Source of the DNA: Mesorhizobium sp. B2-8-5
Lineage (GTDB): Bacteria > Pseudomonadota > Alphaproteobacteria > Rhizobiales > Rhizobiaceae
NCBI RefSeq assembly: GCF_006440675.2
Contig: NZ_CP083951.1
Span: 2,885,501 to 2,949,500 of the forward strand
Length of the DNA: 64,000 bases
Reading direction: 5' to 3'
Under the pieces are notes generated by a model, which was not told the origin of the DNA, searched no databases, and worked only from the letters and a program-made list of their open reading frames with translations. Positions 27,111 to 45,931 of this stretch are shown in pieces (position 1 is the stretch's first letter; every line of letters starts with the position of its first letter). Both the position numbers and the translations under genes were made by a program.

Positions 27111-27132
27111 AACTTATAAGTTATAAGATATC
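27111..27132. promoter_or_regulatory. Class B operator (TTATAAGATAT-type), copy 1
   Basis: The perfect 12-bp palindrome AACTTATAAGTT (27111-27122) overlaps TTATAAGATATC (27121-27132). It lies in the 104-bp gap between the divergent transketolase and omega-aminotransferase genes, 45 bp before the latter. The core ATAAGATAT recurs at 37403 and 38955. Confidence 0.6.
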
Positions 27133-30035: not shown

Positions 30036-30716
30036 CTAGGCGAACATCTCGGTGTGTTGTTCGAGCTGCAGGCGGGTGCGACGGATGTGGCCGTAGAGAA
30101 TGAGGCCGGCCTGTTCGCCGTCATGCCGCTTCAGCGCTTCGAGGATCAGTCGATGCTCGTGATGCACCGCCGTCATGCCGGCCTTGCCGACCGATGCGGC
30201 GAACGCGCGGCGGTATTGCTGGGTGGTGTTCCAGAATTTGTGGATCATCTGGGCGAGCTGAGGCATCCGCGCGCCCTCATAGCTCAGGAGATGAAACTCG
30301 CGGTCGAGCTGCAGGAACTCGTCGATGCCGTCAGCGGCCTCGATGCGCGAGACGAGGTCTTCCAGGCGCGCAAGCGTTTCGGGCGAAAGGTTGGCGCTGC
30401 TTTCGGACAGCGCCAGCGGCTCCAGCCGCTCGCGGATCTTGTAGATCTCGATGCATTCGGCGCGGTCGAGCTTGGAAATCCAGGCGCCGCTGTTGGGCAC
30501 GAGGATGACCAGCCCCTCGCTTTCCAACTGCCTCAGCGCCTCGCGCACCGGAATGCGGCTGATACCGTACTCTTCGGCGAGCTCCTCCTGGCGGACGCGG
30601 CTGCCCGGCCGCAGCCGCCCCGACAGGATGGCGTCGCGCAGCGCGTCGGTGACGCGGCCGCTGGCCAGGGCGGCGCCGTTGCCCTCGGTTCCGCCGCTTG
30701 TGCGTCTGCCGGCCAT
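30036..30716 (-). CDS. GntR-family regulator, FadR/FCD subfamily
   Basis: Transcription factor of 226 aa. The HTH is in residues about 20-85 (EEYGISRIPVREALRQLESEG), then an FCD domain (LQLDREFHLLSYEG; HHEHRLILEAL). The ATG at 30716 follows GGGGA nine bases away. It is more divergent from the other regulators here. No class A or B element precedes it, so it is the best local candidate to read the class C sites (ATTGGATACAAT) at 31384-31458, 35401-35475 and 39004-39077; this is inference from proximity only. Confidence 0.9.
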   Translation of the reverse strand: MAGRRTSGGTEGNGAALASGRVTDALRDAILSGRLRPGSRVRQEELAEEYGISRIPVREALRQLESEGLVILVPNSGAWISKLDRAECIEIYKIRERLEPLALSESSANLSPETLARLEDLVSRIEAADGIDEFLQLDREFHLLSYEGARMPQLAQMIHKFWNTTQQYRRAFAASVGKAGMTAVHHEHRLILEALKRHDGEQAGLILYGHIRRTRLQLEQHTEMFA

Positions 30717-30797
30717 GATCTCAATTCCCCGCATCGTGTCGATCCCGAAGATGTTAGTGCATCGGTGAGCGGGTGGGAATCGGCACGAACCAACCAC

Positions 30798-31352
30798 TCA
30801 CAGGTGAGGGCTGGCGGGATGCCAGAGCCGGCGGTCCGTCTCGCGCTCATAGGCCTTGCCCTTGGGAAAGGAGACCAGCTCGAGCTGCATGCCCCAGGGG
30901 CTCAGGAAATAGACCCAGCTCTGACCGGCGCTCGGCCCCTCGATGCGCACCGTCGGCTCGCCGAGCACACGCACGCCATGCGATCTGAGATAGGCGACAG
31001 CCTCGCCGATATCGTCGACATAGAAGGCGAGGTGGTGTCCGCCGACGTCACTGTTGCGGGGCTGGGTGCCGTTGCTGCCGGGGGCGGAATATTCGAAGAT
31101 TTCGAAGTTGGAGCCGTGACGGCAGCGCAGGAATTTGAGCCGCTTCATCACCGTCCGGGGGTGGACGTTGAGATGGGTTTCCATCCAGTCGCCGTCGGAC
31201 TGGAAAGGCCCGAGCTCATAGAACGGCTCGCAGCCGATCACCTCGACGAAGAAACGGACGGCTTCGTCGAGATCGGGCACGGTGAAGCCGATATGCTCGG
31301 TGCCGCGCAGTCCGGGCAGGCCTTTCATGGTATCCGTCGCTTCCATGCTCAT
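30798..31352 (-). CDS. VOC-superfamily (glyoxalase/dioxygenase fold) protein
   Basis: Small metal-binding protein of about 184 aa. The paired beta-alpha-beta-beta-beta modules carry probable ligands His20 (TEHIGFTVPD), a Glu near 84-87 (FEIFEY), His107 (GGHHLAFYVDD) and Glu158 (MQLELV). Methylmalonyl-CoA epimerase, lactoylglutathione lyase and extradiol-type enzymes share this pattern. The start is unsure (ATG at 31352, 31346 or 31328; none has a strong ribosome-binding site). It is divergent from the class IV aminotransferase gene and shares a promoter region with two class C sites. Confidence 0.75.
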   Translation of the reverse strand: MSMEATDTMKGLPGLRGTEHIGFTVPDLDEAVRFFVEVIGCEPFYELGPFQSDGDWMETHLNVHPRTVMKRLKFLRCRHGSNFEIFEYSAPGSNGTQPRNSDVGGHHLAFYVDDIGEAVAYLRSHGVRVLGEPTVRIEGPSAGQSWVYFLSPWGMQLELVSFPKGKAYERETDRRLWHPASPHL

Positions 31353-31383
31353 GATCGGTACGATATCTCGCAATTCCTGCGGA

Positions 31384-31395
31384 AACGTATCCAAT
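31384..31395 (-). promoter_or_regulatory. Class C operator, pair 1 proximal to VOC gene
   Basis: Minus-strand ATTGGATACGTT, 10 of 12 to the consensus ATTGGATACAAT. Exactly 63 bp from its partner site at 31447. Confidence 0.65.
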
Positions 31396-31446
31396 TGATG
31401 GTCGTTGGCAAGAGAAATAGCCATTCTGGCCGAATAAATCGTAGCC

Positions 31447-31458
31447 ATTGTATCCAAT
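31447..31458 (-). promoter_or_regulatory. Class C operator, pair 1 proximal to aminotransferase gene
   Basis: Minus-strand ATTGGATACAAT, identical over 12 bases to the site at 35464. It lies 27 bp before the aminotransferase ATG, so binding would block that promoter or its clearance. Confidence 0.7.
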
Positions 31459-31485
31459 ACTAGCGCCGCTTTGGAGGAGGTTTGC

Positions 31486-32406
31486 ATGAACGACAGGACA
31501 GAATACGATCCCGCATTGGGCATAGCCTTCGTCAACAGAAGCTACGTGCCGCTCGCCGAGGCCACGATCCCGATCACCGACCGGGGTTTCGTCCGGTCCG
31601 ATTCGACCTATGACGTCACCCATGTCTGGAAGGGCCGCTTCTTCAGGCTCGACGATCATCTCGAGCGCTTCCTGGCTTCCATGCGCGGCCTGCGCATGAG
31701 CCTGCCGCTGTCCAAGGCGGAAATGGCCGATATCCTCGTCGAATGCGTGCGCCGCAGCGGACTTCGCGACGCCTATGTGCAGATGACCTGCACACGCGGC
31801 GTGCCGCCGGCAGGCACGCGCGATCCGCGGCTTTGCCAGAACCGGTTCTATGCCTTCGCGCAGCCTTTCGTCTGGATCGCCAATGACGAGCAGCGCCGCG
31901 ACGGGCTGAAGATGGTGGTGAGCTCGGTGCAGCGCATCCCGCCCGAATCGCTCGATCCGCGCATCAAGAATTTCCACTGGCTCGATCTCACCATGGGCAT
32001 CTTCGAGGCCTACGACAAGGACGCCGTCGTCGCCGTGCTCAACGATGGCAAGGGCAATGTCACCGAAGGCGCGGGCTTCAATGTCTTTTCGGTGAAGGGC
32101 AACGTCATCGCGACGCCGGACCGCGGCGTCTTCGAGGGCATGACGCGCCGCACGGTGATCGAGATGGCCGGCGAAGCAGGCGTGACCTGCGAGGTGCGGC
32201 CGCTGCCGATCGAGGAACTGCGCGACGCCGACGAGATCTTCATCTCCAGCTCCGCCGGCGGCATCATGCCGGTGACGGTGCTTGACGGCCGCATCTACGG
32301 CAACGGCAAGCCCGGACCGATCACCAACCGCATCCACGATCTTTACTGGGCAGCACACAGGGCGGGTCCGCTCTGCACGCCGGTCAGTTACGAGACGGCC
32401 GCATGA
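31486..32406 (+). CDS. Class IV aminotransferase, second (R)-amine transaminase-like enzyme
   Basis: PLP fold-type IV enzyme of 306 aa, related to the one at 4313: RSDSTYDV (Tyr42), [39 protein letters not shown] (catalytic Lys161), NVTEGAGFN and SSAGGIMPVT. The shared Tyr/TRG/KN..W pattern places it in the (R)-amine transaminase-like branch rather than with D-alanine or branched-chain enzymes, though less tightly than its relative: Gln-Trp is His-Trp here. GGAGGAGG precedes the ATG. It overlaps the following SDR gene by ATGA, so the two products likely act consecutively. Confidence 0.82.
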   Translation: MNDRTEYDPALGIAFVNRSYVPLAEATIPITDRGFVRSDSTYDVTHVWKGRFFRLDDHLERFLASMRGLRMSLPLSKAEMADILVECVRRSGLRDAYVQMTCTRGVPPAGTRDPRLCQNRFYAFAQPFVWIANDEQRRDGLKMVVSSVQRIPPESLDPRIKNFHWLDLTMGIFEAYDKDAVVAVLNDGKGNVTEGAGFNVFSVKGNVIATPDRGVFEGMTRRTVIEMAGEAGVTCEVRPLPIEELRDADEIFISSSAGGIMPVTVLDGRIYGNGKPGPITNRIHDLYWAAHRAGPLCTPVSYETAA

Positions 32407-33170
32407 GCGCGCAAGCACAACGTGTCTTCCTGGTGACCGGCGGCACGCGCGGTATCGGCGCGGCCTGCGTCGAGCGGCTGGCGGCGGATGGCGCGCGGGT
32501 CGTCTTCACCGGGCGCGACCGGGCCGCCGCCGATGATGTGATCGCCGCGGTTCCCGGCGCCGTCTTCGCCGCCGGCGACGCGACCAGCGAGGCCGACTGC
32601 AAGCGCGCGGTCGACGTCGCGCTGGAACTCGGTAGGGGGTGCATCGCCGGCCTGGTCAACAATGCCGGCGCCGGCGGGCGCGGCGCCTTCGACCAGACGA
32701 CGCTCGACGATTGGAACAGGACGATGACGGCCAACGCGACCTCGGCATATCTGTTCACGCGTCATGCGCTCGCGGGTCTGCGGGCCGCTCGCGGCGCCGT
32801 GGTGACGATCTCGTCGGTGGCCGGCCTGGTCGGCGAGGAGGGGCTTGCGATCTACACCGCCTCCAAGGCAGCGCTGATCGGCCTGACACAAGCGCTGGCG
32901 CTCGAATACGGCTCGGAGGTGCGCTTCAACGCTGTCTGCCCGGGTCAGATCGCAACGCAGATGATGGCAAAGACGCTGGCCATTCCGGGCCGGCGCGAGA
33001 AGCTGGAAAAGCGCATTCCCGCGGCGCGCCTCGGCACACCGGAAGATGTCGCGGAGGCGGTCGGCTGGCTGCTGTCTCCCGCGGCGGGCTTCGTCAACGG
33101 TGCGGTGCTCAGCGTCGACGGTGGCGAGACCGCCGGCTTCATGACGCCGCGCGACGATCCGAAGGCCTGA
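32403..33170 (+). CDS. Short-chain dehydrogenase/reductase (SDR)
   Basis: Classical SDR of 255 aa. TGGTRGIG cofactor loop (12-19), VNNAG (85-89), and catalytic Ser138, Tyr151 and Lys155 (YTASK). It ends with the family's usual GAVLSVDGG. Translationally coupled to the class IV aminotransferase, so it could reduce the ketone or oxo acid that enzyme forms, or oxidise an amino alcohol upstream. It converges with the E1 fusion gene with only 3 bp between them. Confidence 0.9.
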   Translation: MSAQAQRVFLVTGGTRGIGAACVERLAADGARVVFTGRDRAAADDVIAAVPGAVFAAGDATSEADCKRAVDVALELGRGCIAGLVNNAGAGGRGAFDQTTLDDWNRTMTANATSAYLFTRHALAGLRAARGAVVTISSVAGLVGEEGLAIYTASKAALIGLTQALALEYGSEVRFNAVCPGQIATQMMAKTLAIPGRREKLEKRIPAARLGTPEDVAEAVGWLLSPAAGFVNGAVLSVDGGETAGFMTPRDDPKA

Positions 33171-33173
33171 CTT

Positions 33174-35360
33174 TCAGCCAAGCGGCCGACCTTGGTCGGC
33201 CATCACCTGGCGCAAGCCGCGCTCGATGTCGGCGGGGCGTGCGCAAGCGGCGCCCTCGAGCACCTTGGAAATGCTCGGCGAGGCCTCGCCGCCATGGACA
33301 CGCTGGATCGGCTGGTCAAGCCAGTCGAAGCAGCGGTTCTGGATCTCGGCGGCGAGCAGGCCGCCATAAGACGTGCCGCGCGCGCCTTGCTCGACCACCA
33401 GCACATTGCCGGTCTTGCGGATCGAAGCTTCGATGGTCTGCCAGTCCAGCCCGGCGCGATCGAGCGAGCGCAGGTCGATGACCTCGGCGTCGACGCCGAG
33501 ACGTTCGACCGCTTCAAGCACTGGCCGCACCGTGGCGAGGTAGGTGAGGATCGTCATGGCCGTGCCCTGGCGCACCACCTTGGCCTTGCCGAGAGGGATG
33601 AAGTAATCGAGGTCGTCGATCGGCGCCGGTCCGGTCGAATTGTAGAGATCGACATGCTCGATGACGAGCACCGGGTCCTTGCAGCGCAGCGCGCTGTTCA
33701 TCAGACCGACATAGTCGAAGGGCGTCGATGGGGCGACGATGCGCCAGCCGGGCGAGGTGGCGAAGATGCCGGCCGGATCCATGGAGTGCTGCGAACCGTA
33801 GCCGGTGCCCATGGCGACCTTGGTGCGCAGCACCAGCGGCACGTCGATATCGCCGCCGAACATGTGGCGCGCCTTGCCGATCTGGTTGAAGACCTGGTCG
33901 GCGGCCACCCACATGAAGTCCGGATACATGAACTCGACAACCGGAATATAGCGGCCATCCATGGCGATGCCGCCGCCGAGCCCGGTAAAGGCGGCTTCGC
34001 TGATCGGCGTGCCGAGCACCCGGTCGGGGAAGGCGGCGGCAAGGCCGCGCGTCGCGCCATTGGTGCCGCCCTTCAGCCGGTGCACATCTTCGCCCATGAC
34101 GACGATGCGGTCGTCCGTCGCCATGCGCCGCTGCATGACATTGGCGACGGCGTCGATGAATTTGGCGTTGCCGTCGATCGCGCCGCCGAAGGTTTCCAAT
34201 TCCTCGGTGCGCGTCCTCGCGAATTCCGAGAGGTCGCCGCGTATGCCGTGGTCGCGGAAACCTTCGTCCGGCCAGAGCGCGGGCTTGATGCGGTTTTTGC
34301 CGTCCACCTGCTCGACGAGTTCGGCGGCGACATCGGCCATCAGCGCAAGCGCGCGTTCGTGCAGAGCGGCAACGCCCGAGCTGCCGATGATCTGACGCTG
34401 TTCCATTTCGCTCGCCAGCCGGTCGAGCGGGTCGCGCGCCCGCCAGGCCGCTTCCTCCGCCTTGTCGCGATAGCCGAAGGCGCTGCCGGGCAGAGGGCCG
34501 TTCTGATGGAAGTAGCGATAGACGTCAGCCTCGATGATGGCCGGCCCGCCGCCGTTGCGCATCAGCTCCATGGCTTCCTTCGTCGCAAGATAGACGGCGA
34601 GGGGATCCATGCCGTCGACTTTCCAGGCGGGAATGGCGAAGGCCGATCCGCGTGCCGACAGGCGCGGCTCGGCGGTCGCTTCCTCGACATGGGTCGAGAC
34701 GGCATAGCGGTTGTTCTCGATGAAGAAGCAGAGCGGCAGCTTCCAGGCGGCGGCGATGTTCATCGTCTCCAGCACCGAGCCGATATTGACCGCGCCGTCG
34801 CCGAAATAGGCAAAGGCGACGTCGCCTTTGCCGGCCCGCTTGTGCGCCCAGGCGGCACCGGCCGCCAGCGGCACGCCGCCTCCGACGATCGCGTTGGTGC
34901 CGAGATTGCCGGCCTCGGCCCAGCGCAGATGCATCGAGCCGCCGCGTCCCCGGCAAAAGCCTTGCGCCAGGCCGAGGATCTCGGCGAGCGACCTCTTGGC
35001 CAGACCGCGGATTGCCGATGAGAACTCCGCCGCGGGCAAGAGGCCGTCGGGCGCGACATAACGGATCGACTTGGCGAGAAACTGGTGATGCGCGCGATGG
35101 GATCCATTGATCTGATCGCCAGCGCGCATCAACGCGGCCGAGCCGACGGCGCCGCCTTCCTGGCCGACCGCGGAATGGGCCGGACCGTGCACCAGGCCCT
35201 GGCCCGCGAGCTCCAGCACTTTCTCCTCGAAGGCGCGGATGAGATGGGCCGAAACAAGCATCGATTCCAGCGCGGCCGGATCGGCGTCGTCCCAGTCGGC
35301 GCTTGTCGTGCGCAGTTCGCGCCAGGGGGCTGATGGGGCCAATGTTGCGTAGTCGGGCAT
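33174..35360 (-). CDS. Fused alpha-beta E1 thiamine-diphosphate dehydrogenase-type protein (second copy)
   Basis: Fusion protein of 728 aa, paralogous to the one at 7137 with the same domain order. ThDP motif GDG at 187-189 to Asn216-Asn217, HRAHH (88-92), GRGGSMHLRW in the alpha half, and GEDVHRLKGG and GYGSQHSMDPA in the beta half. AGGAAG precedes the ATG. It appears to be a single-gene transcription unit with two class C operators upstream. As with its relative, no E2 or E3 gene accompanies it, so either a distant E2 is used or the enzyme does not follow the classic 2-oxo-acid dehydrogenase scheme. Confidence 0.88.
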   Translation of the reverse strand: MPDYATLAPSAPWRELRTTSADWDDADPAALESMLVSAHLIRAFEEKVLELAGQGLVHGPAHSAVGQEGGAVGSAALMRAGDQINGSHRAHHQFLAKSIRYVAPDGLLPAAEFSSAIRGLAKRSLAEILGLAQGFCRGRGGSMHLRWAEAGNLGTNAIVGGGVPLAAGAAWAHKRAGKGDVAFAYFGDGAVNIGSVLETMNIAAAWKLPLCFFIENNRYAVSTHVEEATAEPRLSARGSAFAIPAWKVDGMDPLAVYLATKEAMELMRNGGGPAIIEADVYRYFHQNGPLPGSAFGYRDKAEEAAWRARDPLDRLASEMEQRQIIGSSGVAALHERALALMADVAAELVEQVDGKNRIKPALWPDEGFRDHGIRGDLSEFARTRTEELETFGGAIDGNAKFIDAVANVMQRRMATDDRIVVMGEDVHRLKGGTNGATRGLAAAFPDRVLGTPISEAAFTGLGGGIAMDGRYIPVVEFMYPDFMWVAADQVFNQIGKARHMFGGDIDVPLVLRTKVAMGTGYGSQHSMDPAGIFATSPGWRIVAPSTPFDYVGLMNSALRCKDPVLVIEHVDLYNSTGPAPIDDLDYFIPLGKAKVVRQGTAMTILTYLATVRPVLEAVERLGVDAEVIDLRSLDRAGLDWQTIEASIRKTGNVLVVEQGARGTSYGGLLAAEIQNRCFDWLDQPIQRVHGGEASPSISKVLEGAACARPADIERGLRQVMADQGRPLG

Positions 35361-35400
35361 CAGGACTTCCTGGCGGGTTCGTGACTGGGTCGAGAAGCGT

Positions 35401-35412
35401 ATTGGATACGAT
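35401..35412 (+). promoter_or_regulatory. Class C operator, pair 2, E1-proximal
   Basis: ATTGGATACGAT, 11 of 12 to consensus, 40 bp upstream of the E1 fusion ATG and exactly 63 bp from the partner at 35464. Confidence 0.65.
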
Positions 35413-35463
35413 AGAGACGTTTATTGCCTTTTGAAAGGCGAAAATTGTCAAAATAGGTTTGTC

Positions 35464-35475
35464 ATTGGATACAAT
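35464..35475 (+). promoter_or_regulatory. Class C operator, pair 2, distal
   Basis: ATTGGATACAAT, a perfect consensus copy in the 184-bp gap between the E1 fusion and the flavoprotein gene. Confidence 0.7.
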
Positions 35476-35544
35476 TAATATGTCAGCTTTCGTTGCGGTA
35501 GGCGCGCGGGTACCGACCGGCCTCAATGCTGCGCGTCGGCGCCG

Positions 35545-36666
35545 TCAGTCCGCCTCAGGCGCGAGAATGCGTGTCACATGTTCGGCAATCGCCAGGCTGG
35601 AGGTCAGGCCGGGGCTTTCGATGCCGAACAGATTGACCAGCCCGGCGCTCCCATGGGTCGTCGCATCCTGGATGACGAAGTCGCTGGTTTCTTCGCCCGG
35701 GCCGGAGAGTTTCGGCCGAATGCCGCTATAGGCAGGCTGCAGGCTGTCGTCGGCCAGATCCGGCCAGTATTTGCGGATCGCGTCGTAGAAGCGTTTGCCG
35801 CGCGCCGGATCGACGCGGTAGTCGAGCGTGTCCGTCCATTCGACGTCGGGCCCGAACCGAGCCGTACCGCCGAGATCAAGTGTCAGGTGGACGCCAAGCC
35901 CGCCCGGTTCAGGCACCGGGTAGACCAGCCGCGAGAAGGGCGCCCGGCCCACCACCGAGAAGTAGTTGCCCTTGGCGTAGCGAAGTGTCGGCAAAAACCG
36001 CCGGTCGAAGCCTTCGAGCGAGCCCGCCAGCGCAACGGCGCCGAGGCCGGCCGCGTTGACGAGGCGCGACGTAGCGATCTCGAAACCCTCGCCGCTTGCC
36101 GTGTCCATCGTCTGGAGCACGATGCGGCCGGCATCGATGCGGCCCGAAACGATGCGCGTGTTGAGCGACAGCATGGCGCCGCTTTCTTCGGCGTCGCCGA
36201 GCAAGGCGAGCATGAGCGCTTTGCTGTCGATAATGCCGGTGGAAGGCGAGAGCAGCGCTTTGGTGCAATGAAGCGCCGGCTCCAGGGCTTGCGCTTCAGC
36301 GGCGGAAACGAAGCGCAAATCTTCCACGCCGCAGGCTGCGGCGCTGGCGCGGATCGCGGCAAGCACGGGTTCCTGGGCCTCGTCGGTTGCGACGATCAGC
36401 TTGCCGGAGCGCCGATGCGGGATAGCGCGTTCCGCGCAGTAGCGGTAGAGCATGTCGCGGCCGGCGACGCAGAGCCGGGCCTTCAGCGATCCTTGCGGAT
36501 AGTAGATGCCGGCATGGATCACTTCCGAATTGCGCGAGCTCGTCTCGGTGCCGATGGCATCCGCCGCCTCGACGATGAGCGTGTCCAGGCTGCGCGCGGC
36601 CATCTTGCGCGCAATCGCCAGACCGACGACGCCGGCACCGGCGACGATGCAGTCGATCTGTTCCAT
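35545..36666 (-). CDS. FAD-dependent oxidoreductase, L-2-hydroxyglutarate oxidase (LhgO)-like
   Basis: Flavoprotein of 373 aa in the D-amino-acid-oxidase/glycerol-3-phosphate-dehydrogenase fold family. The dinucleotide motif is GAGVVG (10-15), followed by the L-2-hydroxyglutarate dehydrogenase-like signature [15 protein letters not shown] (46-60); there is a C-terminal FAD segment near [14 protein letters not shown]. It would oxidise an L-2-hydroxy acid to a 2-oxo acid and pass electrons to the membrane or oxygen. It lies two bases after a GntR gene on the same strand. The true substrate may differ from 2-hydroxyglutarate, given the catabolic context. Confidence 0.82.
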
Positions 36667-36668
36667 TC

Positions 36669-37358
36669 TCAGCCCGCCTTGGCCGTGTCGGCGGCGCGCC
36701 TGCTGAACAGCCGTTCGAGAATCACGTTTCCGCCCTCGGTGATGTCGGCGATGATCGCACGTTCGGCGCCATCGGCATCTTTCCTTTCGACCGCGGCGAG
36801 CACTGCGTGGTGATTGTCGATCATGGTCCTGCCGCCTTCATGATAGGATTCCGCAATCAGGGGACCCATCTGCAGCCACAGCCGGTTCAGGATGCCGCGT
36901 AGCACAACCATGTCGCCGATGTCGGCAAGCGCGAAATGGAAGGTCTGGTTGAGCTCCAGCGCTTCCGTCCAATTCCTCTCGGTAATGGCGCTTTCGTTGC
37001 GGGCAATCAGATGGCGCAGCCGCTCGACATCCCTGGCCGTCGCCTTGAGCGCGGCCTCGCGCGCGGCGAGGCCTTCGAGCTTCAGCCTGATCTGGCGGAT
37101 CTCCCGATAGCGTTCCAGCGTGATGATGGGCACGCGCACCTCGCGCGCCGATTTCTGCACCAGCGCCTCGTCCTGGATCAGGCGCAGGATCGCATCCCGC
37201 ACCGGCGTGACGCTGGTTCCGAGCGACTGGGCGAGGTCGCGGATGGTCAGCCTGGCATCCGGCGCGAAGCGTCCCTTGACCAGCGCCTCGGCGACGCGCG
37301 CATAGACGGTCTCGCCGAGATTTTCGCGCTCGAGCGTTTCGAAGCTGAAGCTCGCCAT
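36669..37358 (-). CDS. GntR-family regulator, FadR/FCD subfamily
   Basis: Transcription factor of 229 aa with [24 protein letters not shown] and an FCD domain ([22 protein letters not shown]). The ATG at 37358 is preceded by GGGACGGGAA. It is co-transcribed with the LhgO-like flavoprotein and divergent from an omega-aminotransferase. A class B element sits 45 bp before its start, which suggests autoregulation and joint control of the aminotransferase. Confidence 0.9.
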
Positions 37359-37402
37359 GCCGTTCCCGTCCCATTTTTGGCTGCCGGCCCAAAAGGGCTT
37401 GA

Positions 37403-37418
37403 CAGTATATCTTATAAG
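37403..37418 (-). promoter_or_regulatory. Class B operator, copy 2
   Basis: Minus-strand CTTATAAGATATACTG between the divergent GntR and omega-aminotransferase genes. It shares TTATAAGATAT with the site at 27121 and contains the palindrome CTTATAAG. Confidence 0.6.
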
Positions 37419-37521
37419 AAACATGATGCATCAAACAGCATAAAGCAAGAGGGAACTGCGACCCTTGGACGAGGGGGAGGCAGGGCAATTTCCGCTTGGA
37501 CACCTGCAGACAGGAGCCGTG

Positions 37522-38898
37522 ATGGACGCCAGACCGAATTCCCCCGAAGCCCGCGACATCCGCTATCACCTGCATGGCTATACCAATGCCCGCAAGCATC
37601 AAGAGACGGGTCCGCTGGTCATCGAAAAGGGCGATGGCATCTATGTCGAGGACATTGCAGGCAATCGCTACATCGAGGCGATGGCGGGCTTGTGGAGCGT
37701 CGCCGTCGGCTTCTCGGAAAAGCGTCTGGTGGATGCTGCGACAAGGCAGATGTCGAAGCTGCCCTTCTATCACGACTTCGGCTCGAAGGCGCATTCGCCG
37801 CTGATCGACCTGGCCGAGCAGCTGGTGCAGATGGCGCCGGTGCCGATGAGCAAGGCCTATTTCACCAATTCCGGTTCCGAGGCCAACGATACCGCGATCA
37901 AAATGATCTGGTACCGGTCGAACGCGCTCGGCCAGCCGGCGCGCAAGAAGATCATCAGCCGCAAGCGCGGCTATCATGGCGTCACCATCGCCTCGGCGAG
38001 CCTGACCGGGCTGCCCAACAATCATCTCTCCTTCGACCTGCCGATCGCCAATATCCTGCACACGTCGACGCCGCATCATTGGCGCGACGCCCAGCCCGGC
38101 GAGAGCGAAGAGCAGTTCTCCGCGCGGCTCGCCGACGACCTGGAAAGACTCATCCTTGCCGAGGGGCCTGAAACGATCGCCGCCTTCATCGGCGAGCCGA
38201 TCATGGGCGCCGGCGGTGTCGTCGTTCCGCCCGCCGGCTATTGGGAAAAGATCCAGGCGGTGCTGTCGAAATATGACATCCTGCTGGTGGCCGACGAGGT
38301 CATCTGCGGCTTCGGCCGCACCGGCGAGATGTTCGGTTCGCAGACATTCGGCATCAAGCCCGACATCATGGTGCTGTCGAAGCAGATTTCCTCCTCCTAC
38401 CTGCCGATCTCGGCGCTCATCATCAACGACAAGGTGTTCGAGCCGATTGCCGACGAGAGCGACCGCATCGGCACGTTCGGCCACGGCTTCACCGGCGGCG
38501 GTCATCCGGTCGCCGCGGCCGTCGCGCTGGAGAACATCAAGCTGATCGAGGAGCGCGACCTGGTCGGCAATGCGCGCAAGGTCGGCGCGCATCTGCAGGC
38601 AAGGCTCAACAAGCTCGCCTCGCATCCACTGGTGGGCGAGGTGCGCGGCGTCGGTCTCATCGCCGCGGTCGAGCTCGTCGCCGACAAGGCAAGCAAAGCG
38701 CCGTGGGGCAAGCCGGCGGCGCTCGGCGCGCTGGTCAACGGCTTTCTGCAGCAGAACGGCGTCATCTCGCGCAATATGGGCGACGCGATCGCCTTCTGTC
38801 CGCCGCTGATCATCACCGAAGCGCAGGTCGACGCCTTGGTCGATGCTTTCGAGCGATCGCTCGACGCCGCCCTGCCGCAGGTTCATCCGCGGGGCTAA
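37522..38898 (+). CDS. Class III omega-aminotransferase
   Basis: PLP enzyme of 458 aa with AMAGLWSVAVGF (53-64), NSGSEAND (116-123), GYHGVTIAS, the cofactor triplet Asp258-Glu259-Val260 in VADEVICGFGRTG, and Lys287 in LSKQISSSYLPIS. It resembles amine:pyruvate and Chromobacterium-type omega-transaminases. ACAGGAG lies before the ATG at 37522. Divergent from its probable regulator. It has no aldehyde dehydrogenase next to it, unlike the similar enzyme at 27177. Confidence 0.92.
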   Translation: MDARPNSPEARDIRYHLHGYTNARKHQETGPLVIEKGDGIYVEDIAGNRYIEAMAGLWSVAVGFSEKRLVDAATRQMSKLPFYHDFGSKAHSPLIDLAEQLVQMAPVPMSKAYFTNSGSEANDTAIKMIWYRSNALGQPARKKIISRKRGYHGVTIASASLTGLPNNHLSFDLPIANILHTSTPHHWRDAQPGESEEQFSARLADDLERLILAEGPETIAAFIGEPIMGAGGVVVPPAGYWEKIQAVLSKYDILLVADEVICGFGRTGEMFGSQTFGIKPDIMVLSKQISSSYLPISALIINDKVFEPIADESDRIGTFGHGFTGGGHPVAAAVALENIKLIEERDLVGNARKVGAHLQARLNKLASHPLVGEVRGVGLIAAVELVADKASKAPWGKPAALGALVNGFLQQNGVISRNMGDAIAFCPPLIITEAQVDALVDAFERSLDAALPQVHPRG

Positions 38899-38954
38899 GC
38901 CAGCCTATGGCAGTCGAAACGCCCTGTCGGGTGAGCGGCCTATCGCGCATTGAC

Positions 38955-38968
38955 ACATAAGATATAAG
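38955..38968 (+). promoter_or_regulatory. Class B operator, copy 3
   Basis: ACATAAGATATAAG, with the shared core ATAAGATAT, in the 256-bp gap upstream of the TorT-like transporter operon. Two class C sites follow it, which suggests that two different regulators act on this promoter. Confidence 0.5.
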
Positions 38969-39003
38969 ATGTAAGTTGAGAGTTAAGCGACCTGAATAGG
39001 CTA

Positions 39004-39015
39004 AATGGATACATT
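39004..39015 (+). promoter_or_regulatory. Class C operator, pair 3, distal
   Basis: AATGGATACATT, 10 of 12 to consensus and itself a near palindrome. Its TGGATAC core is 62 bp from that of the partner at 39066. Confidence 0.6.
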
Positions 39016-39065
39016 TAGGCGAAATTCAGCGTTTGAAGTTTGAAATGCCAACGAAGAAGTGGCAG

Positions 39066-39077
39066 ATTGGATACAAA
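39066..39077 (+). promoter_or_regulatory. Class C operator, pair 3, proximal
   Basis: ATTGGATACAAA, 11 of 12 to consensus, 77 bp before the TorT-like binding-protein ATG. Confidence 0.65.
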
Positions 39078-39154: not shown

Positions 39155-40213
39155 ATGAGTGGATTGAAGAAGTCACTGGCTTTGGCGCTGTCGGCGACGG
39201 TGCTGTCGGCCGGAATGGCGCATGCCGCCGACTGGTGGCCGTTCAAGATCGCCTCGGCGAAGGATGGCGACCTCAAGAACGTGGGAGAGATCGAATACAA
39301 GCCGCTCGACAAGGCAGAGAAGCCCTGGAAGCTCTGCGTGCTCTTTCCGCATCTGCAGGACAGCTATTGGGTGTCGGTGGACTATGGCATCGTCGAGGAG
39401 GCCAAGCGCCTGGGCGTCAAGGTGACGGTGCTGCAGGCGGGTGGATACACCGCGCTGCCGAAGCAGATCTCGCAATATGACGACTGCGTCGCGGCGGGCG
39501 CCGACGCCATCCTGATCTCGGCGATCTCGGAAGCCGGCGTGGCAGCCAAGATCAACGAGGGCATGGGCAAGGGCATCGTCAACATCGCCGTCGCCAACCC
39601 GATCCTCGAGACGCCGATCACCGCCCGCATCACGCCCGACTTCTACCAGAAGGGCTTTCAGACCGGCGAGTATGTGAAGAAGTTCCTCGGCGACAAGCAG
39701 GGCACCGCCGTGGCGTTCCCGGGCCCGCAGGGCAGCGGCTGGGCCGAAACCTACATGAACGGCTTCCGCGACAGCACCAAGACCGGCAACATCAAGCTGG
39801 TCGGCGAAATGTTCGGCGAGGCCAGCGTGCCGGCGCAGCTCAAGCTGGTCGAGGATGCGCTGCAGACCCATCCGGACGTCAACGTCATCTGGGGCGGCGC
39901 GCCGACGGCGGAAGCCGCGATCGGCGCCGTCGCCGACGCCGGCCTGAGCAACGTGACGATCATGTCCTCCTACGAGAACCAGACCATGCTGAAGGCCGTC
40001 AAGGACGGCTCTGTGCTGGGCTTCGCCACCGAGTATCCGGTCATCATGGGACGCATCGGCGTCGACCTCGCGGTTCGCGCGCTGGAAAAGAAGGATCACG
40101 AGAAGGTCCTGCTGGTTGCCCCCGGCATCGTTACCAAGGACAATGTCGACAAGATCGACACGACCCAGATCTTCGCGCCGGACAACTGGCGCCCCGAGTT
40201 CTCGGTCGAATAG
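39155..40213 (+). CDS. TorT-like periplasmic binding protein of a ribose-type ABC importer
   Basis: Periplasmic binding protein of 352 aa with a Sec signal (residues 1-24, cleavage after MAHA). After it, DWWPF and KPWKLCVLFPHLQDSYWVSVDYGIVEEAKRLGV resemble E. coli TorT, the trimethylamine-N-oxide sensor partner, more than RbsB; the rest is a periplasmic binding fold type I. It heads an operon with an ATPase and two permeases, so here the protein delivers a ligand for uptake rather than (or as well as) sensing. An N-oxide, betaine-like or amine ligand is conceivable but unproven. No TorS/TorR-type histidine kinase is near. Confidence 0.85.
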   Translation: MSGLKKSLALALSATVLSAGMAHAADWWPFKIASAKDGDLKNVGEIEYKPLDKAEKPWKLCVLFPHLQDSYWVSVDYGIVEEAKRLGVKVTVLQAGGYTALPKQISQYDDCVAAGADAILISAISEAGVAAKINEGMGKGIVNIAVANPILETPITARITPDFYQKGFQTGEYVKKFLGDKQGTAVAFPGPQGSGWAETYMNGFRDSTKTGNIKLVGEMFGEASVPAQLKLVEDALQTHPDVNVIWGGAPTAEAAIGAVADAGLSNVTIMSSYENQTMLKAVKDGSVLGFATEYPVIMGRIGVDLAVRALEKKDHEKVLLVAPGIVTKDNVDKIDTTQIFAPDNWRPEFSVE

Positions 40214-40264
40214 CGTAGCCGCATACGCGGCCCGCACATCGCGGTTGGATCGCGATCCTCCCGG

Positions 40265-40292
40265 CCTGGCCGCTTCGTCGGAAGCGGTCAGG
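40265..40292 (+). terminator. Hairpin between TorT-like gene and ATPase gene
   Basis: Arms CCTGGCCGCTTC / GAAGCGGTCAGG (11 of 12 paired) with a four-base loop GTCG. No T-run follows; it likely protects the abundant binding-protein mRNA. Confidence 0.5.
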
Positions 40293-40322
40293 CGACTTAG
40301 CTCGCCAGCCTTGGGTTTTTGG

Positions 40323-41810
40323 ATGCTGGAAGTTACAGGATTCACCAAGAGATTCCGCGGCATCGCCGCGCTCGACAATGTCGACTTCTCCCTCAATGAG
40401 GGCGAGGTCCACGCGTTGCTTGGCGAAAACGGCGCCGGCAAGTCGACGCTCATCAATCTCATCGCCGGCACCTTCCCGTGGGCGGAAGGCGTCTACCGCA
40501 TCAATGGCCGCACCATCACCAGCCTGACGCCGCAGGTGGCGCAGGAGATCGGCATCGCCGCCGTTTTCCAGGAATTCAGCCTGGTGCCCGATCTCACAGT
40601 GGTCGAGAACATCTTCCTCGGCCGCGAGCAGTCGTCCGGCCTGTTCCTCAAGCGCAAGCAGATGCGCCAGGCGGCGGCGGAGCTGCTGGACAGCCTCGGC
40701 TTCCATCTGCCGCTCGACGAGAAGGTCGCCTTCCTGTCGCGCGCGCAAAAACAGATGGTCGAGATCGCCAAGGCGTTGCGCATGCGGCCGAAGGTGCTGA
40801 TCCTCGACGAGCCCACGGCCTCGCTCACCGATGGCGAGGCGGAAAAGCTCTTCAATGCCGTGGCGCTGCTGAAAGCGCGCGGCGTCGGCATCATCTATGT
40901 CTCGCATCGCATGAGCGAGATCCGCAATCTCTCCGACCGCGTCACCGTGCTGCGCGGCGGCAAGAAGATCGGCACGGTTGTCACCGCCGAGATTTCGGAC
41001 GAGGGGCTGATCGAGATGATGGTCGGCCGCCCCGTCGAACAGCTGTTTCCGAAGATCGAGCACAAGCCCGGCCCGGTCAGGCTCGAGGTGCGCGACCTTA
41101 CAACCGAGAAGCGCTCCGTCATCGGCGCGTCATTCATGGCGCGGGCGGGCGAGGTGGTCGGTCTTGCCGGTCTCGTCGGCTGCGGGCGCAGCGAGCTCTG
41201 CCGCGCCGTCTTCGGCCTCGAGACCATCGAGGCCGGCTCGATCATGCTGGGCGACAAGGCTGTCGAGCGGCCGACGCCCACGTCGATGCTCGCCGCCAAT
41301 GTCTGCTATTTTCCGGCCGACCGCGGCTCGGAGGGGTTGGCGCTGGCGCGCTCGGCGCGCGAGAACGCAACCATGAGCTCGCTCGACCTGCCGGAACTGT
41401 CGTCCGGGCCGGTGCTGAAATTCTGGCGCGAGAACGAGACGATCAAGACGCCGCTCGCCAATCTTGCGCTCAGACCCATGGCGCCCGAGCGCAAGGCGTC
41501 CGCCTTCTCCGGCGGCAACCAGCAGAAGCTGATGCTGGCGCGCGGGCTGATGAAACCGTTCGACGTCTACCTGTTCGACGAGCCGACCGTCGGCATCGAC
41601 GTCGGCGCCAAGGCCGATGTCTACAACCTCATCAAATCGCTGGTCGAGGCCGGCGCCTCGGTCGTGGTCTCGACATCCGAATTGCCGGAGCTGATCAATC
41701 TCGCGTCGCGGGTCTATGTCATGCATGAAGGCAAGGTGGTCGCCGAGCTTGCTCAGCACGAGCTCAGCGAAGCCCAGGTCCTGTCCCACTATTTCGGAGG
41801 GCGCGCATGA
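40323..41810 (+). CDS. Ribose-type ABC transporter ATP-binding protein (two ABC domains)
   Basis: RbsA-family ATPase of 495 aa. The first domain has Walker A GENGAGKST (34-42), LSRAQKQMVEIAKAL and LILDEPTAS. The second has the degenerate Walker A GLVGCGRSE, then SGGNQQKLMLARGL and LFDEPTVGIDVG, the pattern usual for this family. I placed the ATG at 40323, which gives the normal length, although no strong ribosome-binding site is seen. It overlaps the next permease gene by ATGA. Confidence 0.94.
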   Translation: MLEVTGFTKRFRGIAALDNVDFSLNEGEVHALLGENGAGKSTLINLIAGTFPWAEGVYRINGRTITSLTPQVAQEIGIAAVFQEFSLVPDLTVVENIFLGREQSSGLFLKRKQMRQAAAELLDSLGFHLPLDEKVAFLSRAQKQMVEIAKALRMRPKVLILDEPTASLTDGEAEKLFNAVALLKARGVGIIYVSHRMSEIRNLSDRVTVLRGGKKIGTVVTAEISDEGLIEMMVGRPVEQLFPKIEHKPGPVRLEVRDLTTEKRSVIGASFMARAGEVVGLAGLVGCGRSELCRAVFGLETIEAGSIMLGDKAVERPTPTSMLAANVCYFPADRGSEGLALARSARENATMSSLDLPELSSGPVLKFWRENETIKTPLANLALRPMAPERKASAFSGGNQQKLMLARGLMKPFDVYLFDEPTVGIDVGAKADVYNLIKSLVEAGASVVVSTSELPELINLASRVYVMHEGKVVAELAQHELSEAQVLSHYFGGRA

Positions 41811-42832
41811 GCTCGGAAACGGCGACCATGACCGTTGCCAACGCGCCATCGCATCGCGCCAGCCGGCTCGACCGCTTCCTCATGCAGGGCGGCATCGTCA
41901 TCACATTCCTGGTCGTGGCGGTGGTCGCGACCGCGCTGATCGAGCCGCGCTTCCTCAACCGGCTCAACCTGCTCAATGTCATGCGCAATTTTGCGCTGCT
42001 GCTCATTCCGTCGCTGGCGCAGATGCTGGTGATGACGGCCGGCGGTTTCGACCTTTCCGTCGGCGCGGTGGTGGCGGCGACCTCGGTGGTGACGGCTGCC
42101 GTGATGCTGGTCGGCAGCGGCTATTTCCCAGGCATGGAGCTGATCGTCATCCTTGCCTCGCTGGTCATCGCGCTCGGCGCCGGCGCGCTTGTCGGGCTGG
42201 TCAATGCCGGGCTTGTGGCGACCTTCTCGCTCTCGCCCTTCATGGTGACGCTGGCGATGATGTCGGTGCTGATGGGCATCGCGCTCTATTTCACGCAAGG
42301 TATCCCGATCTACGGCGTGGCCGATTCCTTCATCGTCAATGTCGGACGCGGCCAGTTCCTGGGCCTGCCGATCGTGCTCTGGGTCGGGTTGGCGGTGCTT
42401 GCCGCCTGCATCGTCATGCAGCGCTTCACCGCGCTCGGCCGCCATATCTATGCGGTCGGCAGCGACCAGCGCTCGGCGCGCTTGTCGGGTGTCGCCACCG
42501 GCCGCACGCTGATGGCGGCCTATATGCTTGCCGGCCTGCTCGCCGCGCTCACCGGCTTCCTGATGACGTCGCGGCTCGGCTCCGGCCAGTCGACGATCGG
42601 CGGAACCCTGGCGCTCGAAACCATTGCCGCCGCCGTCATCGGCGGCGTCTCGCTGCGCGGCGGCGTCGGCCGCGCAGAACTGGTGGCGCTCGCAGCGCTG
42701 TTCCTGTCGGTCATCGCCAACGCGATGAACCTGGTGCAGGTCGACAGCAAGTACCAGACGCTGGTGCTCGGCGCCGTCTTGATCATAGCCTTGGCCATCG
42801 AACGGCTTCTGCTGAGGAAGCGGCAGTCATGA
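41807..42832 (+). CDS. Ribose-type ABC transporter permease (RbsC-like) 1
   Basis: Integral membrane protein of 341 aa (BPD_transp_2 family) with eight to ten helices. Characteristic segments are MTAGGFDLSVGA, LFLSPFMVTLAM-type loops around residues 135-155, AVGSDQRSARLSG and GGVSLRGGVGR. Translationally coupled to both the ATPase before it and the permease after it. With the second permease it probably forms a heterodimeric channel. Confidence 0.94.
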   Translation: MSSETATMTVANAPSHRASRLDRFLMQGGIVITFLVVAVVATALIEPRFLNRLNLLNVMRNFALLLIPSLAQMLVMTAGGFDLSVGAVVAATSVVTAAVMLVGSGYFPGMELIVILASLVIALGAGALVGLVNAGLVATFSLSPFMVTLAMMSVLMGIALYFTQGIPIYGVADSFIVNVGRGQFLGLPIVLWVGLAVLAACIVMQRFTALGRHIYAVGSDQRSARLSGVATGRTLMAAYMLAGLLAALTGFLMTSRLGSGQSTIGGTLALETIAAAVIGGVSLRGGVGRAELVALAALFLSVIANAMNLVQVDSKYQTLVLGAVLIIALAIERLLLRKRQS

Positions 42833-43818
42833 GCATGGAGGCCAAGACACAACCGATGGCTCAGAGCTCCGGCCTTTCGCTGAAAGAGATCTTGCGCGCG
42901 GCGCGCCTGCCGATCGCCATTGTCGTTGTCCTCATCCTGTTCGGCCTGGTCGAGCCGCGTGTTCTGTCCCTCGGCAATTTCCGCAACATCGCGCTGCAGG
43001 CGAGCTATCTTGCGATCTTCGCCATGGCGCAGACCATGGTGCTTCTGACGCGCGGCTTCGATCTTTCGCTCGGCTACACCGTCTCGCTGGTCAGCGTCGC
43101 CGCCTCGATGGCGATGGTGGCAATGGGCGGCGGCGATGTCTCGATCCTCTACGGCGTCGGCGCCGCGGTGCTGATCGCCGGTGCGATCGGCCTCGCCAAC
43201 GGCGTTCTGATCGCCGGCATCGGCATCAACCCGCTGGTGACGACGCTCGGCATGGCCAACATGGTGCTGGCCTTCGCCTCGACGATCAGCGGCGGCTTCC
43301 CCGTTACCGGCCTGCCGAAGAGCCTCACCGCCGAATTCGCGCAGGGATCGCCGCTCTCGATTCCGATGCCGATCTGGATTGCCGCCCTGGTGTTCGTGCT
43401 CTTGTTCCTCGTGCTCAAGGCGACGCGCTTCGGCCGCAGCCTCTACATCATCGGCGCCAATCCAAGGGCGGCGGTCGCGGCGGGCATTCGCACCGTGCCG
43501 GTGCTGGTGCTGGCCTACACGCTATGCGCGCTGCTTGCCGCGCTCGGCGCGCTTCTGCTCACCGCGCGCACCGGCTCGGGTGAGCCCAATCTCGGCGGCA
43601 ATCTCACATTGGAGGCGATCGCGGCCGCCGTGGTCGGCGGCGTGCGCCTCTCCGGCGGGGAGGGCGGCGTGGGCGCGGCCGTGCTCGGCGCGCTGTTCGT
43701 CACCGTGCTCTCCAACGGCATGAACCTCGTCCAGATCGACGGCTATCTGCAGCAGATCTGCCTGGGCGTCATCATCATCGTCAGCCTGATCGTCAATCGC
43801 GACGAAGCCAGGCGCTGA
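42829..43818 (+). CDS. Ribose-type ABC transporter permease (RbsC-like) 2
   Basis: Integral membrane protein of 329 aa of the same family: LLTRGFDLSLGYTVSL, GIGINPLVTTLGMANM, IGANPRAAVAAGIRT and GGVRLSGGEGG. Its ATG overlaps the stop of the first permease. It ends 26 bp before hyuA, so importer and hydantoinase-type genes form one operon. Confidence 0.94.
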   Translation: MSMEAKTQPMAQSSGLSLKEILRAARLPIAIVVVLILFGLVEPRVLSLGNFRNIALQASYLAIFAMAQTMVLLTRGFDLSLGYTVSLVSVAASMAMVAMGGGDVSILYGVGAAVLIAGAIGLANGVLIAGIGINPLVTTLGMANMVLAFASTISGGFPVTGLPKSLTAEFAQGSPLSIPMPIWIAALVFVLLFLVLKATRFGRSLYIIGANPRAAVAAGIRTVPVLVLAYTLCALLAALGALLLTARTGSGEPNLGGNLTLEAIAAAVVGGVRLSGGEGGVGAAVLGALFVTVLSNGMNLVQIDGYLQQICLGVIIIVSLIVNRDEARR

Positions 43819-43844
43819 TACTCCAACCTCTTCGGGAAGCTCGT

Positions 43845-45905
43845 ATGGCCTATCAAGTTTGCATCGATATCGGCGGCACCTTCACCGACTGCCTTGTCTC
43901 GAACAGCAAGGGCGAGATCGCCATCTTCAAGTCGCCGACGACGCCCGGCGAATTCGAAAAAGGCTTCATCAACGTGCTGCATGTCGCGGCTGAGGGCTAC
44001 GGCCTGAGCGGCGCCGACTTCATGAAGCAGATCGACCTCGTCGTGCACGGCTCGACCGTGTCGACCAACGCGCTGGTCGAGCGCAAGACGGTCAAGGTCG
44101 GCCTCATCCTGACCGCCGGTCACCAGGACATACTGGTGCTGCGCGAAGGTCCGCGCAAAGGCGCTTTCCAGTGGCGGCTGAACTATCCCGATCCCTATGT
44201 GCCGCGCCATCTCACCAAGACCGTCGCCGGCCGTATCGATGCCCGCGGTCGCGAGCTCGCGCCGCTTTCGCTGGATGACGTCCGCAAGGCCGCCGCCGAG
44301 TTTCGCGGTCTCGGCGTCGAGGCGATCGCCGTCGGCCTGCTGTGGTCGGTGGTCAATCCGGCGCATGAGCTCGCCGTGCGCGAGATCCTGAACCAGGAGT
44401 TGCCCGGCGTCCCGGTGACGCTCAGCCATGAGATCAACCCGATGCCGCGCGAGTACAAGCGCATCATCGCGGCCGCGATCGATGCTTCCATCAACCCGAT
44501 CGTGCGCACCTATATCGAGAAGCTGAAGACGGCGCTCGACGAGGAAGGTTTCGAGGGCGAATTGCTGCTTGCCAACTGCGTCGGCGGCATGATGCCTTTG
44601 GCCGACATGATCCGGAAGCCGATCTACAGCGTCATGTCCGGTCCGACGCTGGCGCCGATGGCGGCACTGGCATTGTCCGACGAGCCCGACATCATCGTCG
44701 GCGACATGGGCGGCACCACCTTCGACGTCTCGGCGCTGCGCGACCACCAGATCATCGTCACGCCGGACAGCATGATCCATGACGATTCGCTCGGCATTCC
44801 CAAGGTCGATGTGCGCTCGGTCGGCGCCGGCGGCGGCTCGATCGCCTTCGTCGATGAAGGCGGCCTGCTGCAGGTCGGCCCGCGCAGCGCGGGCGCCCGA
44901 CCGGGTCCTGCCTGCTACGGCCAGGGCGGCACCGAGCCGACAGTGACCGATGCCAATGTCGTGCTCGGCATCGTCGATCCGGATTATTTCCTCGGCGGCA
45001 AGATGCAGCTGAAGCGGGAGCTGGCGGAGGCGGCGGTCGACAAGATCGCGATGCGGCTCGGCGTGTCGCGGCAGGAGGCGGCCTACGCGATCTACACCAC
45101 CAGCAATCACAACATGGTGGCGGCGATCGAAGAGATCACGGTGCGCGAGGGCATCAATCCGCGCGACTCCTTCTTCGTCTGCGGCGGCGGCGCCACCGCC
45201 ATCCACATCGCCGAGATGGCCGACATCCTCGGCTTGAAGCGCTACATGGTGCCGCGCTTCATGGCCGGCCTCAGCGCTTTCGGCGGCCTGATCTCCGACA
45301 TCCGCTCCGAAGAGAGCGCGGTGCTGCTCACCTCCGATGCCGACTTCAACGTCGCCGGCGTCAACGATGCGCTGAAGCGGCTGAAGCAGGCCGGCAACAA
45401 CTTCCTCGCCGAAGCCGGAGTCGCGGTGGAGAACCGTCAGTTCGAGTTCTCCTTCCTCGGCCGTTACGAATACCAGTCCTTCGAGATCGAGGTCCCGTTC
45501 GAGGCCAAGGACGGCATGGTGTCCGAGGGCGATCTGCCGGGTCTGGTCGAAGCCTTCCACAAGATGCATGAGCGCATCTATTCGATCCGCGCCGACAATG
45601 ACGTCGTCGAGTTCACGGCCTGGAAGCTGCGCGCCATCGGCAAGCGCTCCGGCCAGGACATCTGGCAGAAGAACACGCTGCCCGACCAGGTCGGCGCCAT
45701 CGACCTGAAGGCCAAGCGCGGGATCTACCAGCAGGAGAGCGGGCGTGTCGAAACGGTGCCGGTCTACGAACTTGCGCAATTGCGCGCGGGTGCGCAGGTT
45801 GCCGGCCCCTGCCTGGTCGAGGCCGAGACCTTCACCGCCTATCTCAAGGACCAGCACCAGGGCCAGATCGACCGTTACGGCAATCTCGTCGTGAACATCG
45901 CCTAG
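43845..45905 (+). CDS. hyuA: Hydantoinase A / oxoprolinase-type ATP-dependent subunit
   Basis: HyuA-family protein of 686 aa with an actin/sugar-kinase-like ATPase fold: phosphate loops DIGGTFTD (8-15) and GDMGGTTFDV, VHGSTVSTNAL, and the terminal hydantoinase-A domain (GPCLVEAETFTAYL). With HyuB it forms ATP-consuming enzymes such as N-methylhydantoinase, 5-oxoprolinase or acetone/acetophenone carboxylase. The operon position behind a TorT-like importer suggests the pair acts on the imported compound, either opening a cyclic amide or carboxylating a ketone. Sequence alone does not tell these apart. Confidence 0.9.
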   Translation: MAYQVCIDIGGTFTDCLVSNSKGEIAIFKSPTTPGEFEKGFINVLHVAAEGYGLSGADFMKQIDLVVHGSTVSTNALVERKTVKVGLILTAGHQDILVLREGPRKGAFQWRLNYPDPYVPRHLTKTVAGRIDARGRELAPLSLDDVRKAAAEFRGLGVEAIAVGLLWSVVNPAHELAVREILNQELPGVPVTLSHEINPMPREYKRIIAAAIDASINPIVRTYIEKLKTALDEEGFEGELLLANCVGGMMPLADMIRKPIYSVMSGPTLAPMAALALSDEPDIIVGDMGGTTFDVSALRDHQIIVTPDSMIHDDSLGIPKVDVRSVGAGGGSIAFVDEGGLLQVGPRSAGARPGPACYGQGGTEPTVTDANVVLGIVDPDYFLGGKMQLKRELAEAAVDKIAMRLGVSRQEAAYAIYTTSNHNMVAAIEEITVREGINPRDSFFVCGGGATAIHIAEMADILGLKRYMVPRFMAGLSAFGGLISDIRSEESAVLLTSDADFNVAGVNDALKRLKQAGNNFLAEAGVAVENRQFEFSFLGRYEYQSFEIEVPFEAKDGMVSEGDLPGLVEAFHKMHERIYSIRADNDVVEFTAWKLRAIGKRSGQDIWQKNTLPDQVGAIDLKAKRGIYQQESGRVETVPVYELAQLRAGAQVAGPCLVEAETFTAYLKDQHQGQIDRYGNLVVNIA

Positions 45906-45931
45906 TCAAATCTACACAAGGGAACGATCCT

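Follow-up and report, generated by a model that had tools for sequence, protein, structure and literature searches.

Paired 12-bp elements at three Mesorhizobium promoters are probable operators of an autoregulated GntR regulator with an FCD domain

Six copies of a 12-bp element, arranged as three pairs at three separate promoters, are found in a 64,000-nucleotide stretch of the genome of Mesorhizobium sp. B2-8-5 (contig NZ_CP083951.1, positions 2885501-2949500; this whole stretch is called the window, and coordinates refer to it unless a locus is named). We propose that the pairs are, quite probably, operators of an autoregulated GntR-family regulator with an FCD domain, encoded at 30036 and here named GntR1, whose dimers, held together on the same side of the helix, would repress the promoters. 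All six copies are located where an initial annotation of the window had placed them:

31384..31395, minus strand: operator 1a, ATTGGATACGTT, proximal to the VOC and gntR1 genes and present in all seven aligned genomes
31447..31458, minus strand: operator 1b, ATTGGATACAAT, 63 bp from 1a, the site nearer to the class IV transaminase gene (ATG at 31486)
35401..35412, plus strand: operator 2a, ATTGGATACGAT, the site nearer to the E1 gene (minus strand, ATG at 35360)
35464..35475, plus strand: operator 2b, ATTGGATACAAT, distal to the E1 gene, 63 bp from 2a
39004..39015, plus strand: operator 3a, AATGGATACATT, the site farther from the importer gene
39066..39077, plus strand: operator 3b, ATTGGATACAAA, proximal to the importer gene, 62 bp from 3a

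The six 12-mers match in 10 to 12 of 12 letters, with two of them identical, as initially annotated, and all contain TGGATAC. Their sequence is imperfectly palindromic, with the half-sites ATTGGA and ATTGTA facing each other, and both members of each pair have the same orientation. With up to two mismatches allowed, no sites other than these six are present in the window; in dinucleotide shuffles of the window (n = 300), the mean is 1.24 sites (maximum, 6), and no shuffle contains a pair at 61 to 64 bp. Because allowing three mismatches gives no enrichment of the motif in the window (22 matches versus 16.0 expected, with 22 reached in 11 of 100 shuffles), we use pairing and conservation as evidence instead. 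Across the whole genome (6.46 Mb, a single contig), the pattern WTKGGATACRWW, outside which the site at 39004 falls, has nine matches, consisting of five of the six window sites and four unpaired copies elsewhere. Given that base composition predicts about 4.9 matches and a reversed control gives 2, these four unpaired copies are at chance level. The initial annotation's statement that copies occur only as pairs therefore holds for the window but not for the whole genome, and the many unpaired copies that it had named as evidence against the idea did not appear. In a genome-wide search limited to same-orientation pairs with up to three mismatches (inverted pairs were not searched), nothing beyond pairs 1 and 2 was found at 63 bp, and pair 3 and one 3-mismatch match were found at 62 bp.

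Conservation at orthologous promoters had been named beforehand as a test that could refute the pairs, and we found the sites to be conserved. In an alignment of seven genomes (the window, L007-L011, and L108), the sites of the three promoters are 87 to 96% identical in pairwise comparisons, and the aligned spacers are 64, 43, and 63% identical. TGGATAC is unchanged in 40 of 42 sites, and the spacing is 62 to 64 bp in all 21 promoter-genome combinations. Because the sites are strongly conserved across diverging spacers, this comparison supports the view that the pairs behave as real operators.

The inference that 63 bp places both sites of a pair on the same side of the helix also gains from comparison, since changes in spacing between lineages mostly leave the phase intact. 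Beyond the genus, pairs and triples are mostly spaced by 31, 52, 62 to 63, 74, 83, and 95 bp, corresponding to 3, 5, 6, 7, 8, and 9 helical turns. Three Xanthobacter loci (L013, L014, and L016) have spacings of 31 and 52 bp, L112 has 52 and 62 bp, L021 has 74 bp, and both L114 and L150 have 83 bp. In L012, the spacing is 63 bp at VOC, 95 bp at E1, and 62, 31, and 126 bp on the importer side; L151 has 62, 62, and 161 bp, and L160 has 62 and 40 bp. The element is found in either orientation in other families, as its near-palindromic form allows, and near-symmetric variants occur in L057 (ATTGGATCCAAT) and L112 (AATGGATCCAAT). When spacings are merged into nine classes (31, 40, 52, 63, 74, 83, 95, 126, and 161 bp, pooling 61 to 64, 31 to 32, and 51 to 52 bp and excluding the control loci L035 and L049 described below), they show a phase concentration of 0.73 for a 10.5-bp period (P = 0.005 by simulation, two poor fits included). 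With the period left free, the best value is 10.8 bp (P = 0.005). We hypothesize further that two or three same-face operators are obligatory for GntR1 and that their distance evolves only by the whole turns listed above, which would report a very short protein-held loop or bend; for this stronger version we put the chances at about even.

The protein encoded at 30036, which the initial annotation had put forward as a candidate reader, does co-occur with the pairs. Among 146 genomes of the genus, the arrangement TTGGATAC-N50-62-TGGATAC is present in six and a GntR1 homolog (E ≤ 1e−45) in nine. The six pair-bearing genomes are the same six that encode GntR1 at 78 to 100% identity, and the 137 genomes that lack GntR1 all lack the pair. 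The remaining three homologs in the genus are 55 to 58% identical to GntR1, and at L161 and L019, loci with homologs of this kind, the element forms triples spaced by 31 and 52 or by 32 and 51 bp; the third such locus is L160, with its spacings of 62 and 40 bp. We also scanned 23 GntR1 loci (the window, 14 of 80 loci, and L108, L112, L113, L114, L150, L151, L160, and L161) and 66 control loci with E1 but without GntR1, among which we kept L041 (29% match to GntR1). Repeat stretches (L105, L106, L107, L109, L145, and L149) were not recounted, the 3-kb loci L152-L159 were left out of the scan, and two of nine plasmid matches were examined. A pair within 170 bp is present at 19 of the 23 GntR1 loci versus 2 of the 66 controls, and site density per 10 kb is 2.16 versus 0.19. 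Outside the genus comparison, GntR1 was found in 5 of 394 genomes at the level of the family, 2 of 297 at that of the order, and 1 of 385 at that of the class (each with its own E limit and with the window's genome included).

GntR1 matches the Pfam families GntR (71.6 bits against a cut-off of 27) and FCD (88.5 bits against one of 24.3). The metal-ligand pattern of FCD domains is D/N-x3-H plus two further histidines (PMC7797058). The ligands in the window's GntR1 are D165, H169, H215, and H237, and they are invariant in a 44-sequence alignment (D144, H148, H194, and H216 of homolog P0001). The predicted monomer (pLDDT, 90.8) resembles McbR, AlkR, and PmiR, and somewhat less closely Atu1419 of Agrobacterium fabrum, a tetrameric FCD GntR repressor of the VanR group and, according to its authors, the first tetrameric GntR regulator (PMC7797058). 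At the sequence level, GntR1 matches Atu1419 with 47 bits, and PmiR, 3c7j, and McbR score higher. Because pair 1 precedes the VOC gene and then gntR1 on one strand, gntR1 would be autoregulated. GntR1 likely reads the pairs, its own promoter included.

Under the proposed mechanism, one GntR1 dimer would occupy each imperfect palindrome, and two bound dimers on the same helix face would touch each other or form parts of one tetramer. The intervening DNA would be kept in a short bend or loop, shutting the promoter that lies within or next to it. Release would come when the FCD domain binds a metabolite, so that VOC-gntR1, transaminase-SDR, E1, and importer-HyuAB would be switched on jointly.

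Several observations weigh against this proposal. Four of the 23 GntR1 loci (L039, L057, L071, and L113) have no pair at the fixed score limit. A looser palindrome gives pairs of 61, 63, and 74 bp in L039, L057, and L071, respectively, and none in L113, where no copy of the motif was found in the 11-kb stretch; this search followed the strict one and is weaker evidence. A pair is also present at two of the 66 loci without a local GntR1, with spacings of 33 bp in L035 and of 62 and 145 bp in L049. L035 is from Salipiger abyssi, a species of which a different strain has a plasmid-borne GntR1 homolog (54%). Moreover, the co-occurrence is with a gene cluster (VOC, gntR1, and E1) in related genomes; GntR1 is therefore not singled out beyond doubt, and Fisher P values make the cases look more independent than they are. 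In phase, the sites at E1 in L151, 161 bp apart, are a third of a turn out, and the 40-bp spacing in L160 is two bases off. Finally, three of the four best VIA-align fold matches and Atu1419 are tied, with Z scores only a few units apart, and the fold therefore gives the tetramer no preference.

Two GntR1 dimers could instead bind independently, without contact or loop, with the second site raising occupancy or with one site serving each divergent gene. We consider this unlikely, because spacing is held in all 21 promoter-genome combinations despite diverging spacers, other lineages mostly differ by whole turns, and pairs 2 and 3, which are not between divergent targets as pair 1 is, are nonetheless equally spaced. 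Independent binding does accommodate the poorly fitting 161- and 40-bp spacings; in addition, many GntR double sites in divergons look independent (PMC4494728), and Atu1419 is able to bind a single palindrome (PMC7797058).

It is less probable still that the pairs are read by another protein, be it GntR2 (36669-37424), the product of a third FCD GntR gene (24329-25006), or a protein encoded elsewhere. The window does contain three FCD GntR genes, and an association with a cluster does not by itself point to one of its members. However, pair 1 precedes VOC-gntR1, the GntR2 promoter has a different conserved motif, and the stretches retrieved for the motif-bearing loci L013, L014, L016, L021, L112, L114, and L150, in which GntR1 adjoins the motif, contain no GntR2 (no whole-genome search for GntR2 was made). 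Given these several motif-bearing stretches without it, GntR2 was set aside as the reader.

That the 12-mers are promoter elements and not operators is very improbable. In favor of this reading are their TACAAT-like ends, which resemble a −10 hexamer, the chance-level number of unpaired copies in the rest of the genome, and, by eye in the alignment of pair 1, a TTGCCA-N16-TACnnT arrangement that terminates in the VOC-proximal site. Against it, both copies are conserved, the element takes either orientation in other families and near-symmetric forms in L057 and L112, and it co-occurs with GntR1. Because nothing comparable to this arrangement was seen by eye at pairs 2 and 3, we withhold a start-site claim from all pairs.

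If GntR1 holds the pairs as we propose, its targets would be drawn from the following genes:

30036..30797, minus strand: gntR1, FCD-type GntR regulator and likely reader (Pfam GntR and FCD; start probably at 30734, as in homolog P0001)
30798..31535, minus strand: VOC (glyoxalase-like) open reading frame, upstream of gntR1 on the same strand
31471..32406, plus strand: class IV aminotransferase open reading frame, ATG at 31486 (Pfam Aminotran_4)
32403..33170, plus strand: SDR oxidoreductase, adjoining the aminotransferase (Pfam adh_short_C2)
33174..35360, minus strand: fused E1 (alpha plus beta) of the 2-oxoacid-dehydrogenase type (Pfam E1_dh, Transket_pyr, and Transketolase_C)
39155..40213, plus strand: TorT-like periplasmic binding protein, first gene behind pair 3 (Pfam Peripla_BP_4)
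40116..47725, plus strand: ABC ATPase, permease, HyuA, and HyuB genes, behind the binding protein on the same strand (Pfam)

The VOC open reading frame as listed overlaps operators 1a and 1b, and translation therefore probably begins at an ATG that lies downstream of 1a. Judging by adjacency, the binding protein, ABC, and HyuAB genes would be co-transcribed. The TorT-like protein scores above the cut-off of the NCBIfam model NF008185 and below that of TIGR02955. The best NCBIfam names for HyuA and HyuB are those of the caprolactamase subunits CapA and CapB; because their scores (556.8 and 273.5) are far below the cut-off of 1000, we reject these names and leave the substrate unnamed. The initial annotation had read the three promoters as one regulon and hence as one pathway. 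One regulon is well supported, because the operator is common to all three promoters, and one pathway would be a further conjecture, as no substrate could be named. L160 has its 62-bp pair flanked on one side by a VOC gene, behind which comes a gene for a lipoyl 2-oxoacid-dehydrogenase acyltransferase (E2), and on the other by a shikimate-dehydrogenase-like gene; the fused E1 is encoded in the same stretch. This gene order fits a role of E1 in a 2-oxoacid dehydrogenase complex.

A second motif, similar to TATAAGATA/TATCTTATA, is present at 27122, before class III aminotransferase and transketolase-like genes, and at 37408, in the intergenic region between gntR2 (encoding the FCD GntR at 36669-37424) and an aminotransferase gene, where it is invariant in six aligned genomes. 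It also occurs in the importer promoter as ATAAGATATAAGATG behind TTGACA (38951-38978), where it is conserved and unrelated to the 12-mer. The third FCD-type GntR gene (24329-25006, minus strand) adjoins transketolase-like genes. Since the second motif may be an operator of GntR2 or of this third GntR, the pair 3 promoter may answer to two regulators.

Some loci in other genomes differ in their gene content or site arrangement. In L112, a near-symmetric 62-bp pair (15446 and 15508) is located upstream of a gene for a family 5 solute-binding protein, followed by a permease gene, and a different importer type may have joined the regulon there. The stretch at 8110-15684 of L160 places a GntR1 homolog near genes for a sugar-type binding protein, VOC, lipoyl E2, and the shikimate-dehydrogenase-like protein. 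In L151, the sites 161 bp apart (15897 and 16058) are two good sites on the E1/GntR2 side, and the other two pairs there are spaced by 62 bp. On the Salipiger abyssi plasmid (L113, 3834-8488), the 54% GntR1 homolog and a VOC gene are directly before a pqqABCDE cluster.

In-phase operator pairs for a GntR protein are known in kind, because Atu1419, AraR, and BusR provide precedents. AraR of Bacillus subtilis has an effector domain other than FCD. As proposed for GntR1, a GntR-type DNA-binding domain serves three promoters that have two in-phase operators; AraR binds these cooperatively and forms a small loop, and its operator differs from the 12-mer (PMC4218819). Atu1419 resembles the GntR1 system in being an FCD GntR regulator that controls its own gene through paired short palindromic operators, GntR1's autoregulation being predicted (PMC7797058). 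Its operator, ATGTATACAT, has the same general form as the 12-mer and a different sequence, and its operator pairs are 190 and 109 bp apart, versus 62 to 63 bp in the window; a loop of 190 bp is visible in electron micrographs (PMC7797058). BusR of Streptococcus agalactiae is a tetramer of the GntR family and requires two motifs, three turns apart on one DNA face, for which the authors found no loop; unlike GntR1, it has coiled-coil and RCK_C domains instead of FCD, and its motifs are half-motifs of one bipartite site (PMC8517857). Double GntR sites in divergons are, like the window pairs, separated by a fairly constant distance, which has been read as cooperative control; they differ in being described for divergons, and the parts of that source consulted give no cross-lineage series of helical turns (PMC4494728). 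A literature text search for the operator spellings gave no GntR-regulator paper by title among the matches listed. What the present analysis adds is an FCD member, a three-promoter regulon, and a drift in spacing between families that is mostly by whole turns.

Operator pairs that mostly keep their phase across families would constitute independent, evolutionary evidence for FCD regulators that bridge two sites. The natural spacings, from 31 to 95 bp, offer a ready set for asking how short a GntR-held loop can be. The regulon would also place three unlike operons under a single signal and so leave fewer candidates for the substrate of the importer, HyuAB, and fused-E1 gene set.

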